A stretch of DNA of 64,000 nucleotides from Candidatus Eiseniibacteriota bacterium. GTDB taxonomy: Bacteria > Orphanbacterota > Orphanbacteria > Orphanbacterales > Orphanbacteraceae. A program made the translations under genes and the position numbers. Of the stretch, positions 4,483 through 60,567 are shown piece after piece (within the stretch, counting starts at the first letter, position 1; each line of letters starts with the position of its first letter). The stretch is taken from assembly GCA_029262235.1 (NCBI GenBank), contig JAJCZU010000003.1, positions 1-64,000 on the forward strand, read 5' to 3'. The notes beneath the pieces were generated by a model that was not told the DNA's origin, made no database searches, and saw only the letters and a list, made by a program, of their open reading frames with translations.

Positions 4483-4582
4483 GGCCTGCAATGCAGAGGG
4501 GCTCCCCTCGACCGCGAGTCCTGGCCAAATGGCCAAGTACGGAGGCCTCGCGGATCCGGGGAGCCCCTCTGCCTTGCAGGCC
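4483..4582. repeat. 25-bp inverted repeat (1 mismatch) with inner 7-bp stem, between convergent genes; possible bidirectional terminator or palindromic element
   Basis: GGCCTGCAATGCAGAGGGGCTCCCC (4483-4507) versus GGGGAGCCCCTCTGCCTTGCAGGCC (4558-4582); inner CCGCGAG...CTCGCGG and TGGCCAAATGGCCA in the loop. Confidence 0.85.
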
Positions 4583-18113: not shown

Positions 18114-19670
18114 CTAGCGAATCACCGTCAGCTTGTGCGTCTCCGTACGTGTTCCGAAGTTGAATCGCGCGAAGTAGACGCCCTTCGCGACCGCGCGGCC
18201 GGATGCGTCGTCGCCGTCCCAGGTGAGGGTGCCCGGCGCAGCTTGCCCTGCCGCGCCATCGCTGATCGAGGATCGAATCGACCGCACCATTCTACCCCGA
18301 ATATCGAACACGTCGATGCGCGCAACCGGAGTTCCCGGCACAATCGCGAATGCGAACGTGCGCGTGCTCGGGTTCGGCGAAACGAGCACGCGAAGCCCGC
18401 TTGCGGGGAGCGCATTCGTCGTGCCGGCATCGCCTGCTTCCCCCATGCCATCCGCAACATATGTCGGCACGTCACGCGTCAGTCGTACGATGTTGTTCCC
18501 GCGTTTCGCGATGATGCGCGGGACATCGCTCGCGTCGAGGTTCAGGAAGGGCGCGCCGAGGTCCTTCGAGTCGGCAATGAGTTCCTGCACCCAGACGCTG
18601 TCTTCGACCCTGCTGTAGACCAGCATGCCGAGTGTCGGGCAGTAGAGGGAGCACGGGTCAGCAGGTCCAGGCGGACCGAACGTGCAATAGAACGCGCAGT
18701 TGTCACAGAACGGACTGCCGAGTGATCGCGTGAAGAGAGTGTGCGGCTCGAGCATCGAGTCGAAGTCCCAGCTCTTCGCGGTCCGATCAAACGGATACTC
18801 TCCCGGTGCGCTGACCCCGCCGACCGACCAGTTCCCTGCCGATCGCTCGCGAATCCGCGCGTACCCGTCTCCGCAATCGATACCGTCAAGGACATATTCC
18901 GAACTCAGGACTCGCAGGGAACCGTCGGGGAGCGATCTCAGGTCGAGCAATGTCATGCTCCAGTCGAAGTCATTGGCGATCGTATCCAGAGGCGATGTGG
19001 GAAATGGCGGGCTCCCTCGCACGAGATAGCTCGGATTCGATCCGACGCGCATATGGGCGACGACGTGCACGGAATCCGATGCGTCGACCGCGATGACGGC
19101 GCTCTGAGTCCTGGTCAGGAGAGCGATGCTGTTGCAGCTCCAGTTTCCGATCCCCTGATCGCTGCAGTAGTAACTCGTGTCGCCGGGAGAGTCTGTCGAA
19201 GAGAAGGCCGCGTGCGGGTTGCTCGCGGAATCGAAGGCCAGCGACACCGAGTAGGGCGTGGTTGTGTCGACGAGCGCGGATTGCCACGCGGCACCCGTTC
19301 GGCGCGCGAAGTAGAGATCGCCGAATGCCCTCATGAGCACTCCGAGATCGCCGTTCGGCGCAACCTGGATATCCATGGCCCCGAATCCGCTGCCCGTCAT
19401 GATCGTGTCGAAGATGATCGAGTCCCCGACGACCAGGCCATGGATCGCGTCGTTGCCTCCCGTAAGTACGAGGTGAAGGGCTTCGCTCGAATCGGCCACC
19501 ACGTCTCGCAGCTTACCCGTGAACGGGGCGAGCGTCTGTTCCTGCCATGTGAAGTCGGCGGAAGCAGGATTCGGGCCTGACATGGATCCAAGCAGAATCA
19601 GAAACGCCGCGCCAAGCGCCTGTCTCATTGCCTGCGGTCCAGCTGCGCGGAGAGTGTCGCGGAGGTACAT
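18114..19670 (-). CDS. Secreted protein with FlgD/T9SS-like C-terminal domain, paralog A
   Basis: Signal peptide region; FTWQEQTLAPFTGKLRDVVADSSEALHLVLTGG; Cys cluster SPFCDNCAFYCTFG...CSLYC; C-terminus THKLTVIR. Confidence 0.8.
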   Translation of the reverse strand: MYLRDTLRAAGPQAMRQALGAAFLILLGSMSGPNPASADFTWQEQTLAPFTGKLRDVVADSSEALHLVLTGGNDAIHGLVVGDSIIFDTIMTGSGFGAMDIQVAPNGDLGVLMRAFGDLYFARRTGAAWQSALVDTTTPYSVSLAFDSASNPHAAFSSTDSPGDTSYYCSDQGIGNWSCNSIALLTRTQSAVIAVDASDSVHVVAHMRVGSNPSYLVRGSPPFPTSPLDTIANDFDWSMTLLDLRSLPDGSLRVLSSEYVLDGIDCGDGYARIRERSAGNWSVGGVSAPGEYPFDRTAKSWDFDSMLEPHTLFTRSLGSPFCDNCAFYCTFGPPGPADPCSLYCPTLGMLVYSRVEDSVWVQELIADSKDLGAPFLNLDASDVPRIIAKRGNNIVRLTRDVPTYVADGMGEAGDAGTTNALPASGLRVLVSPNPSTRTFAFAIVPGTPVARIDVFDIRGRMVRSIRSSISDGAAGQAAPGTLTWDGDDASGRAVAKGVYFARFNFGTRTETHKLTVIR

Positions 19671-19688: not shown

Positions 19689-21215
19689 TTAGCGAACGAC
19701 CGTCAGCTTGTGCGTTTCTGTGCGTGTTCCAAATTCGAAGCGCGCGAAGTAGACGCCCTTCGCCACCGGGCGGCCGGAAGCGTCGGCGCCGTCCCAGGTG
19801 AGGGCGCTCGCGCTCCCGGTAGTTGCGCCATCATCCGACGAGAGTGTGCGGACGCGCCGTCCACGGATGTCGTAGATATCGATGACTTCGAGCGAGGCAC
19901 CGGGAGAAACCGCGAACGAGAATACCCGCGCGCTCGGGTTTGGTGATACGAGAACGCGGAGACCGTTCGAGGGGAACCCGTCGGTCACGCCGTCTGCTTG
20001 CGCATCACCATCGGATCCAAGCACGCCGGTCGACACATCGCGCGTGAAGAGGACGATATCCGTTCCTCGCCGCCCCAGTACGCGCGGAACGCCGCCTGGG
20101 TCGAGGTCGAGAAGGGCGCCGTTCGTGCTGTCCGCCCCCGGGATGAACTCTTCCACGAGCACACTGTCGACCATGCGACTGTACCGGATGATTCCGGTCG
20201 TGGAACAAATGGCAGCACATGCGGGATCGCCGCTCGGAAAGCCGAACCAGCATTCCAGGTCACACGCGCTGCAAAAGGGTGAGCCGAGCGTACTGACGTA
20301 GATCGCGTGCACCTCGTCGTTCTCATCAATGTCGAAGCCCTGTGGGGCACGCCCGATGGGATAACCTCCCCCTGGCTCGTGAATGCCGGCGCCGGTCCAG
20401 AGGCCGCTGCGGGAATACATCATGGCTTCGGCTCTCTGACAGTCGACTCCGTCGATGTCCAGGTTGGATGCCAGTACATGGAGAGAGCCGTCTGACGACA
20501 GCCGCGTTTCGACAGGCTCAGAAAAGCCGGGACTGAAGACCGCGATCGTTTCGAGGAGAGCGGGCAAGGGCAGTATCAAGTCGAGAAGCACACTATTGTC
20601 GTCCTGGAAATCGTCGGGCCCCGCTATATTCACTGCTGCGTGAAGGGTGTCGCCGGGTGTGATGGCAAGTCCGCGCGCGTTCCAGACCGTGATGCTGTCC
20701 GCATGGAACTTCGTGCAGGACCAGCCGCCGCCACCGGGGCTGCAGTAGTACCCGATGTTATTGCGCTCGTGGATCGCATGCGCGTTGTTGCCGGAGTCGT
20801 AGGCGAGCGCGAGAGTAAGGGCCCTCGTCGAGTCAACCGTGGCCGCGCTCCATGTTCCTGATGATCGTTCGATCAGGATGATCTGGTCGGCCGTGTCGTC
20901 GCTGAACAGGATTCCCAGGTCCCCGCTGGGCGCCACCTGTATGTCGAGAAGGGGCCCGATACTCGAAGTCGTATAGATGGTTTCGACCTGCGCGCTTCCC
21001 CCGGAAAGCTCCCCGTGGAGCAGGTGACCGAATCCCGATGTCGCCGTAAAGTGGAGGACGCCGCTCGAATCGTACACAGCGTCGAGGCGCGAGCCGGCAA
21101 TTCCGGACGCCAAGATCTGCTCCTGCCATGTGAAGTCGGCGGAGACGGGGTTCGGGATGGTAATCAGCGCAAGGAGGGTTACGAGTACAGCCGGAATGTG
21201 GGCCGATTTCCTCAT
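19689..21215 (-). CDS. Secreted protein with FlgD/T9SS-like C-terminal domain, paralog B (tandem duplicate of paralog A)
   Basis: FTWQEQILASGIAGSRLDAVYDSSGVLHFTAT; SPFCSACDLECWFG...CAAIC; C-terminus THKLTVVR. Confidence 0.8.
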   Translation of the reverse strand: MRKSAHIPAVLVTLLALITIPNPVSADFTWQEQILASGIAGSRLDAVYDSSGVLHFTATSGFGHLLHGELSGGSAQVETIYTTSSIGPLLDIQVAPSGDLGILFSDDTADQIILIERSSGTWSAATVDSTRALTLALAYDSGNNAHAIHERNNIGYYCSPGGGGWSCTKFHADSITVWNARGLAITPGDTLHAAVNIAGPDDFQDDNSVLLDLILPLPALLETIAVFSPGFSEPVETRLSSDGSLHVLASNLDIDGVDCQRAEAMMYSRSGLWTGAGIHEPGGGYPIGRAPQGFDIDENDEVHAIYVSTLGSPFCSACDLECWFGFPSGDPACAAICSTTGIIRYSRMVDSVLVEEFIPGADSTNGALLDLDPGGVPRVLGRRGTDIVLFTRDVSTGVLGSDGDAQADGVTDGFPSNGLRVLVSPNPSARVFSFAVSPGASLEVIDIYDIRGRRVRTLSSDDGATTGSASALTWDGADASGRPVAKGVYFARFEFGTRTETHKLTVVR

Positions 21216-56059: not shown

Positions 56060-56333
56060 GACGGCTCATGGTACGGGAGGGAGTGCGGTACCACAAGGAC
56101 GCGCCCGTGGATAACGGGCGGGGCACGAAGAGGAGTGAGCGGGCCCGATTCGATGAAGAGGCCGAATTGATCAGGAATCGCCATTCTTCACGCCTCTGGC
56201 CTTTCGCTGACTCACTCCATGATCCCTCAATTGTCTCGTTCACTGGAATTGAGTATAATAGAGACTCTCCTCTACTCCCGTGCCCGCCCCTCCCGGCTGG
56301 CCGCCAGTTGATCCATTGCATCCCGGGACCGGT

Positions 56334-57881
56334 ATGAAAACAGCCCTTTTCTCCATTCTGCTGCTGCTTCTCGTCGCTCCGCTTGCACAGCCCGGGGCGC
56401 AGCTGCTTCCGGACGGTTTTGCGATCGAACAGATCGTGAAGGGGCCGTTCACGGGGCAGCCGGTCGGCTTCGACATTCTGGCGGACGGCCGGATTCTGTT
56501 CATCGAGCTGCAGGGAAACGTGCGGATCGCGCCAGTGGGCGCCTACCCGATCGCGGGTGACTCGATCCACTCGTTCCCGGACGTTCTCGTCGAGACGGAA
56601 CGGGGGCTGCTGGGAGTAGCGGGCGATCCCGACTGGCCGGACGAACCTTACTTTTACTTCTATTACTCGGGGACGGATTCCGCGTCGCACATCGTACGGT
56701 TCACCGTGACGGGTATCGGCGTGAACCTGCCTACAAGCACCGCCCTGACGCTGACCGAGCGTTATGAAATCCTCACGATTCCTGATTTTGACGGCAGTCA
56801 CAACGGAGGCACGATCCGGTTCGGACCGGACGAGAATCTGTACGTGAGCAACGGCGACGACAAGGATATATGCAGCGCGCAGGATCGCAGTTCATGGAAT
56901 GGGTCGATCCTGCGACTCGACCTGGACGATCTGCCGTCCGCCGGCCCCGGCGGCCCGCCGCCGATAGCGGACATCACGCCGGACGACAATCCGTTCATCG
57001 GGCATGTCGATCAGACCGCGCATTTGATCTGGGCGTTCGGATTGCGCAACCCGTTTCGCTTTACGATCGATGCTGTTACCAACGATGTGTTTGTCGGTGA
57101 CGTGGGGAGCAACACGTGGGAAGAGGCGAACCGCGTGCCGTTCGACAGCGCCGGCACGAACTTCGGCTGGCCCTGGTTCGAAGGGCCCGACCCGAATAAC
57201 TTTTGTGACAGTGCAACGGCTTTCACTCCGCCTTTTCACGTGTTCCCGCATATGGAGCCGTTCCCGGCCATTATCACGGGCGGCCCTGTCTATCGCGACG
57301 TGATCGCTTCGGATCTGCGTTTCGGGCCCGCATACGACGGCGACTACTTCTTCATCGAGCCGAATCTGCAGTGGATCGGGCGCGTCAAGAACACCGGAGG
57401 GACATGGAGTGTGCCGCCGCCGGTTCCCGGACAGCCCGACTCCACGAAATGGGCCGACCAGATCGGGGGGTACGCGACGGATATGCAGCTGGGGGCTGAC
57501 GGCGCGATCTATATGATGTACCTGTCGACCGGAACGCTCAGCCGCGGCATTCACCGCATCGTGAGCGACTACACCGCGACCAGCATCGATCCGGGGCGTC
57601 CGCTGTCGCTCATGCGTTCAAGCGCGCATCCGAACCCCGCGCCCGCCGAAGGGACCACGATTCAGTATCGCCTGCCCTCGGACGCAGCGGTCGACCTCGC
57701 GATCTACGATGTGCGCGGCCGCCTGGTCCGCACACTGCGCGCGGGCCGAGCCACGAACGGCTCACTTCACTGGGACGGGCGCGCCGAAAGCGGACGCTCC
57801 GTCGCTTCCGGCCTCTACTACTACACGATCACGGCACCGAACGGTGTTCGCTCGACCGGCAAAATCTCACTCGTTCGATAG
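56334..57881 (+). CDS. PQQ-dependent sugar dehydrogenase-like protein with FlgD/T9SS-like C-terminal domain
   Basis: GLLGVAGDPDWPDEPYFYFYYSG; SHNGGTIRFGPDENLYVSNGD; WAFGLRNPFRFTID; C-terminus GKISLVR. Confidence 0.87.
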   Translation: MKTALFSILLLLLVAPLAQPGAQLLPDGFAIEQIVKGPFTGQPVGFDILADGRILFIELQGNVRIAPVGAYPIAGDSIHSFPDVLVETERGLLGVAGDPDWPDEPYFYFYYSGTDSASHIVRFTVTGIGVNLPTSTALTLTERYEILTIPDFDGSHNGGTIRFGPDENLYVSNGDDKDICSAQDRSSWNGSILRLDLDDLPSAGPGGPPPIADITPDDNPFIGHVDQTAHLIWAFGLRNPFRFTIDAVTNDVFVGDVGSNTWEEANRVPFDSAGTNFGWPWFEGPDPNNFCDSATAFTPPFHVFPHMEPFPAIITGGPVYRDVIASDLRFGPAYDGDYFFIEPNLQWIGRVKNTGGTWSVPPPVPGQPDSTKWADQIGGYATDMQLGADGAIYMMYLSTGTLSRGIHRIVSDYTATSIDPGRPLSLMRSSAHPNPAPAEGTTIQYRLPSDAAVDLAIYDVRGRLVRTLRAGRATNGSLHWDGRAESGRSVASGLYYYTITAPNGVRSTGKISLVR

Positions 57882-57902
57882 CAAGGGCGCGATTCGCTTC
57901 CT

Positions 57903-57965
57903 GGCCCGACACCAGCGGATGCCGGCCCGACACCAGCGGATGCCGGCACGACGCCAGCGGATGCG
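57903..57965. repeat. Three tandem copies of a 21-bp unit (ggcccgacaccagcggatgcc)
   Basis: Copies at 57903-57923, 57924-57944 and 57945-57965 (last one diverged). Confidence 0.93.
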
Positions 57966-58125
57966 CGACTTCGCGATCCCTGGCCGACCGCCTTTGGCAT
58001 CGCAAGGTCGTGTGTTTTGCGTGTGCTCACTTCTGTTGCCGGAGGATGATACGAAAGTCGGTGCGCCGAAAGGCTTGTCGGCTCAAGCTTGGTCTCGCTT
58101 GCCGCGCATCCGCTGGCGTCGTGCC
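57945..58125. repeat. 23-bp perfect inverted repeat flanking about 135 bp
   Basis: ggcacgacgccagcggatgcgcg (57945-57967) and cgcgcatccgctggcgtcgtgcc (58103-58125). Confidence 0.93.
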
Positions 58126-58378
58126 TGGAGGCGCCGGGCAACGATGAACCGGCCGAACTGGCCCGCTGCCGCGGCACGACAGGGCGAGGGCGGAGCGGAG
58201 GCGTCGGCGCGCGTATCCTCGGAAAGCGTCCTGTCCCCTCCTGATTCTTCACGCTGCAAAGCGAATCGTGAGGCGGGCGGCGGAACACTCCCCCGCAGTC
58301 CCGAGCCCCATTGGAGGCGCCGGGCAACGATGAACCGGCCGAACTGGCCCGCTGCCGCGGCACGACAGGGCGAGGGCG
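58126..58378. repeat. 67-bp identical direct repeat
   Basis: tggaggcgccgggcaacgatgaaccggccgaactggcccgctgccgcggcacgacagggcgagggcg at 58126-58192 and 58312-58378. Confidence 0.95.
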
Positions 58379-58453
58379 AGGAGGAGTGTTTCGTCGCCCA
58401 CGCTGTTGCTCGCCCTCATTGCGAGGGCGAGGAGGAGTGTTCCGCCGCCCGCC
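58272..58453. repeat. 20-bp inverted repeat and 20-bp direct repeat inside the intergenic mosaic
   Basis: ggcgggcggcggaacactcc (58272-58291) inverted at 58434-58453; cgagggcgaggaggagtgtt repeated at 58371-58390 and 58422-58441. Confidence 0.9.
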
Positions 58454-58569
58454 AACCGAACGCTCCGATTCGGGATTTCCCCTCGAATTGTCAGGCTTAA
58501 TTTGCGACCCTCAGGGGGCTGTCATGATTACAGAGGACTCCGGGCGATCCGGAGGCCGGGCGGGAGCGT

Positions 58570-60567
58570 ATGCAGAACTGGACGGGAAAGACGATTGCGG
58601 ATCGCTACGAGGTCCTCGAGAGAATCGGGGATGGCGGGTTCGCGTCGGTCTGGAAGGCGCGGGAGATCAGACCGGGCGCCGAAGTGGCAATCAAGATTCT
58701 GCATGACGAACACGCGGAAGACGAAGCGTTCGTAAAGTCGTTCTTCGAACAGGCCAACCGTTTTGCGAAGTATCGCGACCGGGCGGGCCTCAGCACGGTG
58801 CTGGATTTCGGGACCGACAAGGACACGGGCGCCGTCTATATCGCGATGAGCCTGCTCGGTGAATCGCTCGAAAATCGCCTGTCGACAGAAACGAAACTGG
58901 ACGCGGGCGAATGCAGGCGCCTGGCGCGCGAAGTGTCGTCGGCGCTCGCCGTGCTGCATGCCGACGGTGTCGTGCATCAGAATCTGAACGCCCGCAATAT
59001 CCTCGCCCGCCCGGGCGACGGGCGGTTCGTGCTCACGGATTTCGGCGTCGGTCTCGTCGGCGAAGCGCTCGAGCGGACCGCGCGCACGATGGACCTGAAT
59101 CAGTCGGACATCTGGGCGTACACCTCACCGGAACAGATCAAGTCGGCGACTCCCGAGGAAATCGGCCCCCCGGCCGACTATTATGCTCTCGGGGTGACGC
59201 TCTACCGCGCGGCGACAGGAAGCTTTCCGTTCGTCCCGCGCGTTCCGCAGGTCTTGATGGACCACATCAACGAGCCGCCTCCCGATCCGGCGACGATCGA
59301 GCCCGGGATCGAGCCGAACATGCGTGCCCTGATCCTGCAGTGCCTGGCGAAGGATCCGGCCGCGCGTCCGGGGTCACCGGCGGATGTGGATGCCGCGCTC
59401 AGCGCACCCGTTGCCGGCCCGGCCGCAGCGGGCGGGGGAGGTGGGGGCGCGCGCACCGGTCTGATCGCCGCGGGAATCGTCGCCCTGATCGCCGCGGGAT
59501 TTTTCGGCTTTCGCATGTTCGGCGGCGAGGAAGGGGATTCGTATGCGATCCGTACCGCGCCGGCAGGCGCGATCTACCGGGTTTACGAAGGGGAGAAGCA
59601 GCGTTTCTCCGAAGCGATCCGCAAGGGAACGAGTCCGTCGTCGTTCCAGCTTCCGCCAGGCGCCTATTCGCTCGATCTCGACCTGGACGGGTATTTTTCA
59701 TGGAGCGGCGAACCGTTCGAAGTGGGCCCGGGCGACACGCTGCCGAGCTTCCGGCTCGACCGCAAGAACCGCGTGACCGTCGAGACCACGCCTCCGGGGG
59801 CCCTGGTCGTTCTCCGTGCGATCGAAACGCGCGAAACCAGGAGCGTGGACGGACAGGAGGCGTCGTTTTACCCGGTGCGCCCCGGGCGTTACGAACTCGA
59901 GGCGTCACTCGAGGACTACGACCTCTATCGCGATACGATTACAGTCGCCGACCAGGACCGCACGATCTCCGTCACACTTCCGGAAAAGACAGGCAAGCCC
60001 GTGTGGATCTTCACGCTTCCGGACGGCGCGAGCGTGGCGATCGACGGGACGCCGGTTTCGATTCCCACAAACTGCTTCATCGAAGACGTCCCGTTCGGAT
60101 TTCGCACGTTCACGTTCTCGCGCCTCGGCTACGCGACGTTCGACACGAGCATTGCGATCGTACCCGACGGCGGCGTCGATACGGTTGCGGTGGAGCTCGG
60201 GGAGAGCGCCGATCCCGTGCGTTCGGCGCGGTCGGCGAATCTCAGCGCGGTTCATCGCCTGGTGCGCGAGTATTCCGTCGCGATCGAAAACGAAAACATC
60301 GCCTCTCTGAAGTCTCTGATCCGTGAATTCCCGTCCGAAGAGGAGCGCTTCTGGACGCGTTACTTCGGCGCGGCCGACAGGATCGACGCGACAGCCCTGA
60401 TCCTGCGGCAGGATGTCCGCGAGCGGACGGCGGAACTCGACGTGCGTCTCTTTCTCGACTACCGGGACAAGCGCGGCGCGGCGATGGAGTCGTCACTGGA
60501 ATACACGGTGGAACTCGAAAAGGTGAAGGATGCCTGGCACATCAACCGAACGAAGCCGCGCGGGTAA
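58570..60567 (+). CDS. Serine/threonine kinase-like protein (predicted pseudokinase) with TM segment, PEGA-like repeats and C-terminal NTF2-like region
   Basis: RYEVLERIGDGGFASVWKA; VAIKIL; VVHQNLNARNIL; LTDFGVG; TM GLIAAGIVALIAAGFFGF; PEGA-like TPPGALVVLRAIETRETRSVDG and LPDGASVAIDGTPVSIPTN. Confidence 0.88.
   Translation: MQNWTGKTIADRYEVLERIGDGGFASVWKAREIRPGAEVAIKILHDEHAEDEAFVKSFFEQANRFAKYRDRAGLSTVLDFGTDKDTGAVYIAMSLLGESLENRLSTETKLDAGECRRLAREVSSALAVLHADGVVHQNLNARNILARPGDGRFVLTDFGVGLVGEALERTARTMDLNQSDIWAYTSPEQIKSATPEEIGPPADYYALGVTLYRAATGSFPFVPRVPQVLMDHINEPPPDPATIEPGIEPNMRALILQCLAKDPAARPGSPADVDAALSAPVAGPAAAGGGGGGARTGLIAAGIVALIAAGFFGFRMFGGEEGDSYAIRTAPAGAIYRVYEGEKQRFSEAIRKGTSPSSFQLPPGAYSLDLDLDGYFSWSGEPFEVGPGDTLPSFRLDRKNRVTVETTPPGALVVLRAIETRETRSVDGQEASFYPVRPGRYELEASLEDYDLYRDTITVADQDRTISVTLPEKTGKPVWIFTLPDGASVAIDGTPVSIPTNCFIEDVPFGFRTFTFSRLGYATFDTSIAIVPDGGVDTVAVELGESADPVRSARSANLSAVHRLVREYSVAIENENIASLKSLIREFPSEEERFWTRYFGAADRIDATALILRQDVRERTAELDVRLFLDYRDKRGAAMESSLEYTVELEKVKDAWHINRTKPRG

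Follow-up and report, generated by a model that had tools for sequence, protein, structure and literature searches.

What accounts for the dense mosaic of direct and inverted repeats that fills a 688-bp intergenic gap (positions 57882-58569) in the 64,000-nucleotide window, the whole stretch of DNA analysed here? The gap extends exactly from the stop codon (57881) of a gene with GSDH and FlgD_ig domains to the start (58570) of a kinase-PEGA gene, both on the + strand. A sequence-only reading had listed five interlocking repeats within it, all of which are present: a 3 x 21-bp tandem repeat at 57903-57965 (copies 100, 100 and 86%), a 23-bp perfect inverted repeat (57945-57967 / 58103-58125), a 67-bp identical direct repeat (58126-58192 / 58312-58378; 96% over 75 bp), a 20-bp inverted repeat (58272-58294 / 58431-58453; 96%, 20 bp perfect) and a 20-bp direct repeat (58370-58399 / 58421-58450; 93%, 21 bp identical). 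The longest exact repeats of the gap are 67 bp (direct) and 23 bp (inverted), while the maxima in 300 dinucleotide-preserving shuffles were 14 and 13. The same reading saw no coding gene that would explain the gap, and we likewise rejected one, since the open reading frames there (57709-58500 on the + strand and 57821-58363 on the - strand) had no Pfam match. The mosaic consists of two large hairpins, A and B, from a genus-specific set, together with a truncated B and local duplications of their arms. The features of the region are as follows.

56334-57881, + strand: upstream gene with a GSDH domain (Pfam PF07995, E 1.3e-31) and a C-terminal FlgD_ig domain (PF13860, E 6.5e-10)
57903-57965, + strand: tandem repeat of 3 x 21 bp, whose last unit supplies the larger part of A's left outer arm
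57945-57967, + strand: left outer arm of A (23 bp), perfect complement of 58103-58125
57961-58115, - strand (covariance-model sense): element A (model R2, 132.9 bits, E 3.6e-26)
58103-58125, + strand: right outer arm of element A, pairing with 57945-57967
58126-58200, + strand: truncated second copy of B, directly adjoining A's right arm (R1 match 58094-58216, 27.0 bits)
58274-58401, + strand (covariance-model sense): element B (model R1, 97.5 bits, E 1.4e-21)
58370-58399, + strand: first copy of the B right arm region, from the repeat comparison
58421-58450, + strand: duplicate of the B right arm region, pairing with the left arm 58272-58294 better than the first copy does
58570-60567, + strand: downstream Ser/Thr protein kinase-PEGA gene (PF00069, E 5.5e-30; PF08308, E 2.2e-12)

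The upstream start at 56334 is the choice of a codon-based caller, and the open reading frame could begin at 56280. Strands given for A and B are the sense of the covariance model; transcription of the GSDH gene would read the + strand of element A, which begins 80 bp after that gene's stop codon. The truncated B at 58126-58200, together with 58312-58386, is the source of the 67-bp direct repeat.

The units turned out to be dispersed families in the window's own genome and in its congener, which bears out the earlier suggestion of a non-autonomous repeat element. Used as a query, the gap gave 39 matches in its own genome (G000, 95.5% complete), falling in the two parts that we call A and B, and 14 in the second species of the genus (G001, 82% complete); there were no matches in 39 other genomes. 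Two covariance models, R1 built from 22 B copies and R2 built from 21 A copies, have lengths of 127 and 151 positions. The best 150 candidates per genome were scored, hence the counts are lower bounds: at least 24 A and at least 28 strong B in G000, and at least 12 A and at least 18 strong B in G001. Among the matches listed, none fell in the five other family genomes (G002-G006), which are all the further genomes of the phylum compared. The B model also picked up a smaller, related class C (~85 bp), for which a pattern search found at least 25 copies in G000, 2 in G001 and 0 in the five other family genomes; a reversed-pattern control also gave 0. A search of G001 with a class C locus as query brought up, by accident, a fourth class, D, of which a strict pattern returned 25 copies with very similar cores and flanks that differ but are complementary. 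Its layout is GGGTCCTGTCGCGC...CGGCAGGCTCG...GGGGTCCCCG...GGCGCGCCACCC, palindromic, with the flanks private to each locus.

L129:1438-1520 (G000:C3:366537-366619): example of class D
L173:1500-1996 (G001:C193): tandem array of class D, four copies ~139 bp apart after one gene

Among named genomes the sole match to the B pattern was a MAG labelled Gemmatimonadetes bacterium SS_bin_27, which may be G001 itself, and the literature offered nothing relevant on intergenic repeats in Gemmatimonadetes. A phage or plasmid origin was rejected, as the viral contigs, phages and plasmids searched held no element matches. A known Rfam RNA was rejected as well: eight loci gave no match in Rfam 15 at the gathering score, the best weak match near the window elements having an E of 0.79. 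An assembly artefact is unlikely, because the same classes occur at orthologous gene ends in a separately assembled second genome.

In model sense (the window's + strand for B, - strand for A), the common architecture leads from an outer stem through an internal loop, a short stem and a tandem G-A loop to a further short stem, an asymmetric loop and an inner stem, which is capped by a small loop in C and by a large apical domain in A and B. In B and C the asymmetric loop sets CATTGG against ACA or A, and in A it sets AACTTGA against CA; the internal-loop motifs of the conserved core are common to all three classes, and the apical domain of A carries a nearly invariant GCAACAGAAGT. The stems of A and B covary strongly, the observed score being reached by 0 of 500 shuffles in each. 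Single-sequence folding of the window copies was unexceptional (z -0.7, 0.4, -1.6 and -2.0), so the claim of structure rests on covariation. Of the earlier proposal of a structured RNA locus it is the word "structured" that stands.

In all four classes the sequence of the outer stem varies by locus, yet the two arms pair within each locus. Pairing of an element's own arms compared with swapped arms amounted to -58 versus -35 kcal/mol for B, -52 versus -29 for A and -44 versus -27 for C. For class D the Watson-Crick run was 4.64 for own arms versus 2.39, and the largest value in 2000 shuffles was 3.20. Between the same loci of G000 and G001, compensated double changes made up 38 of 198 changed outer-stem pairs, versus 31 of 562 in slid controls, though in this count many of the altered pairs have merely lost pairing or are misaligned.

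Position relative to genes also follows a rule. In 64 cases among A, B and C the model 3' side had a stop codon no more than 100 bp away, compared with 6 cases for the 5' side (p = 2.4e-13); the stops were called by a simple codon-based program trained on the window. For class C alone the numbers were 11 and 3 (p 0.057). A gene therefore reads a stop codon, a few tens of bases and then the reverse complement of the model. With one fixed orientation after the stop, convergent genes can carry an inverted pair, and several convergent gene pairs do carry one element each. In the window, element A obeys this rule and element B breaks it; B may have been displaced. Imperfect palindromes in fixed orientation after a stop codon are also found in integrons, as attC sites, which have conserved ends and a variable middle and lie in cassette arrays. 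The elements here, unlike attC, have a conserved middle and variable ends and belong to ordinary host genes spread over the contigs, including metabolic and regulatory ones (identities judged by eye from protein sequences). We rejected the gene-cassette idea on these grounds.

Behind the stem of A and B we found no U-run (T about 0.08-0.19), and T-runs follow some class C hairpins only. Stems delimited automatically say nothing about U-runs, since A- and T-tracts pair in them. In gene sense, the 60-70 bases after the hairpins of A, B and C are purine-rich (G ~0.4, A 0.25-0.3, T ~0.1), often GGAAGGAAGAGG-like with a recurrent GAGGAATCCGGAGG-like motif. Because of the missing U-run and the purine-rich sequence behind the stem, A and B are not canonical intrinsic terminators. 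They do have a stable GC-rich hairpin with covarying stems shortly after the stop codon in gene orientation.

The fixed place and orientation, the arms shared with plain terminators and the T-runs in some C copies suggest a role at transcript ends. We consider it probable that the elements are genus-specific long hairpin repeats at gene 3' ends that serve as transcript 3'-end structures. The hairpin would form in the 3' untranslated RNA, or in DNA, and would stop the polymerase, block 3' exonucleases, or both. Such elements probably originated in an ordinary terminator hairpin whose apex received a conserved module, by insertion or by copying, and the larger modules (A and B) would in turn have entered the apex of the smaller C. 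Arms would then be duplicated by slippage across the hairpin, which would give the mosaic seen in this window. Termination, mobility and the active strand are what we infer for these elements. If this is true, many gene ends in one genus bear oversized, layered hairpins whose arms change together at each locus. Plain hairpin, small core and large module would then form a natural series for studying how repeats colonise terminators, one that also bears on why palindromic arms stay complementary.

We compared 31 elements of G001 with gene ends of G000. At 22 the class was the same (some of these pairings being judged from one flank only), at 3 it differed, and 6 had no clear counterpart among the compared loci. 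The 22 same-class ends indicate that a large part of the system predates the species split. Of the three class differences, G001:C431:5739 and G000:C3:73087 share terminator arms (GCGAAGGCCGG / CCGGCCTTTCGC-like) around inserts of different class, B at one locus and C at its counterpart; at G001:C528:719 versus G000:C6:131134 a C-type core carries the A apical domain in its apex; and the third (G001:C528:297 versus G000:C6:133831) is based on a short flank match. These ends suggest that modules became nested in a hairpin apex. The nesting of B within terminator arms whose counterparts in the other species enclose a C core, and of an A domain in a C-core apex, also speaks for the main rival to the 3'-end reading. 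According to this rival, the elements are selfish and mobile but non-autonomous, and they home in on the loops of existing hairpins, their flanks being the two halves of the target and any transcript-end role incidental. The very similar cores of class D between different but mutually complementary flanks point the same way, as does the GSDH gene end. In G001 this end has one plain hairpin in a 57-bp gap and then a convergent gene with CxxCH-type motifs; in the window it has 688 bp, two elements and then the kinase gene. The plain-hairpin arms in G001 are, however, unlike those of the window's A, so the two ends are not a clean filled and empty pair, and no clean empty site with a duplication, as expected of MITE-like elements, was found at the compared gene ends. 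A target-site duplication, looked for at the elements, was not identified either. Apex homing is weakened by the lack of any transposase linked to the elements, by the retention of most copies at matching gene ends of both species, which makes recent movement rare, and by the compensated change of arms after insertion. On this evidence we regard it as possible but doubtful. A more elaborate form, in which a non-RAYT recombinase drives the repeated installation of A, B, C and D in the loops of gene-terminal hairpins, where they can nest and are kept by compensated arm change, seems to us rather unlikely.

Partial upstream copies of an arm (at least 14 bp) accompany 11 of 42 B copies and 4 of 34 A copies, and such recurrent duplications account for the tandem and nested repeats of the window. 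These duplications, and the different downstream neighbour of the GSDH gene in the two species, by which the gap coincides with a gene-order difference, give only indirect backing to the recombination hotspot that the sequence-only reading suggested. The recurrent duplications, like the compensated changes in locus-private arms, would also be expected if the palindromes were a mutational product that perfects and lengthens itself through template switching and slippage during replication, with neither selection nor role. We think this improbable, as it leaves unexplained why the core motifs are conserved, why the orientation after stop codons is fixed and why copies were kept so long at orthologous gene ends. 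Genes for trans-acting small structured RNAs, derived from 3' untranslated regions or the opposite strand, are very unlikely: the invariant apical-loop residues in A would suit them, and so would the tandem G-A internal loops that the alignments show in model sense, but there is no Rfam match, a comparison of G.U with A.C picks out no strand, and a role in cis is a better fit for dozens of copies located at ordinary genes.

The 3'-end hairpins can be placed beside several known systems. REP and BIME sequences are described as dispersed extragenic palindromes, often paired or clustered, for which functions in termination and in stabilising mRNA have been proposed (PMC3733652, PMC2817692, PMC3116915); REPs measure 20-40 bp and end in a GTAG or CGTC tag (PMC3733652). 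Our elements resemble REP, BIME and REPIN sequences in their many dispersed extragenic palindromic copies, but they are ~85-155 bp long with locus-private outer stems. Mobilisation by a RAYT, the kind of transposase that moves REP sequences, was rejected: Y1_Tnp (PF01797) had 0 matches in G000 and G001, with positive controls in E. coli and others, and since no RAYT gene was found the elements are not REPs proper. Four of the five family genomes without hairpins do carry Y1_Tnp genes. ERIC, NEMIS, RUP and other stem-loop families are characterised as ~30-200 bp, intergenic, structured, species- or genus-specific and thought to be non-autonomous (PMC2267715, PMC2229807). The present elements share these traits and are of comparable length; going by those descriptions, they are set apart by the fixed orientation after stop codons, the locus-private arms and the several classes sharing one core. 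Paired DNA uptake sequences form intrinsic terminators built from repeats (PMC2267715), to which our hairpins at gene ends are similar, C copies sharing arms and T-runs with plain terminators; A and B differ in being much larger, with conserved loops and without a U-run. Insertion sequences such as IS1397, IS621 and ISKpn1 target REPs (PMC1525189), and our elements would likewise have inserted into palindromes, although unlike these autonomous sequences they carry no transposase. The elements are best read as non-autonomous intergenic hairpin repeats, a variant of the REP/BIME/ERIC kind.

Two further repeats of the window lie outside the gap. One is a long intergenic hairpin at 4483-4582 (40-nt arms, 85% complementary, 20-nt loop) that matched neither R1 nor R2; the other is a direct repeat of 121 nt (18115-18235 / 19690-19810; 88% identical, 1575 bp apart). 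Elements also occur close to contig ends, at distances of a few hundred bases or less, on G000 contigs C1, C7, C8 and C10 (for example C10:120887-121010, C7:187466-187593, C8:411239-411392 and C1:5-127) and on several small G001 contigs. Their presence near contig ends in both genomes suggests that the elements may break assemblies.
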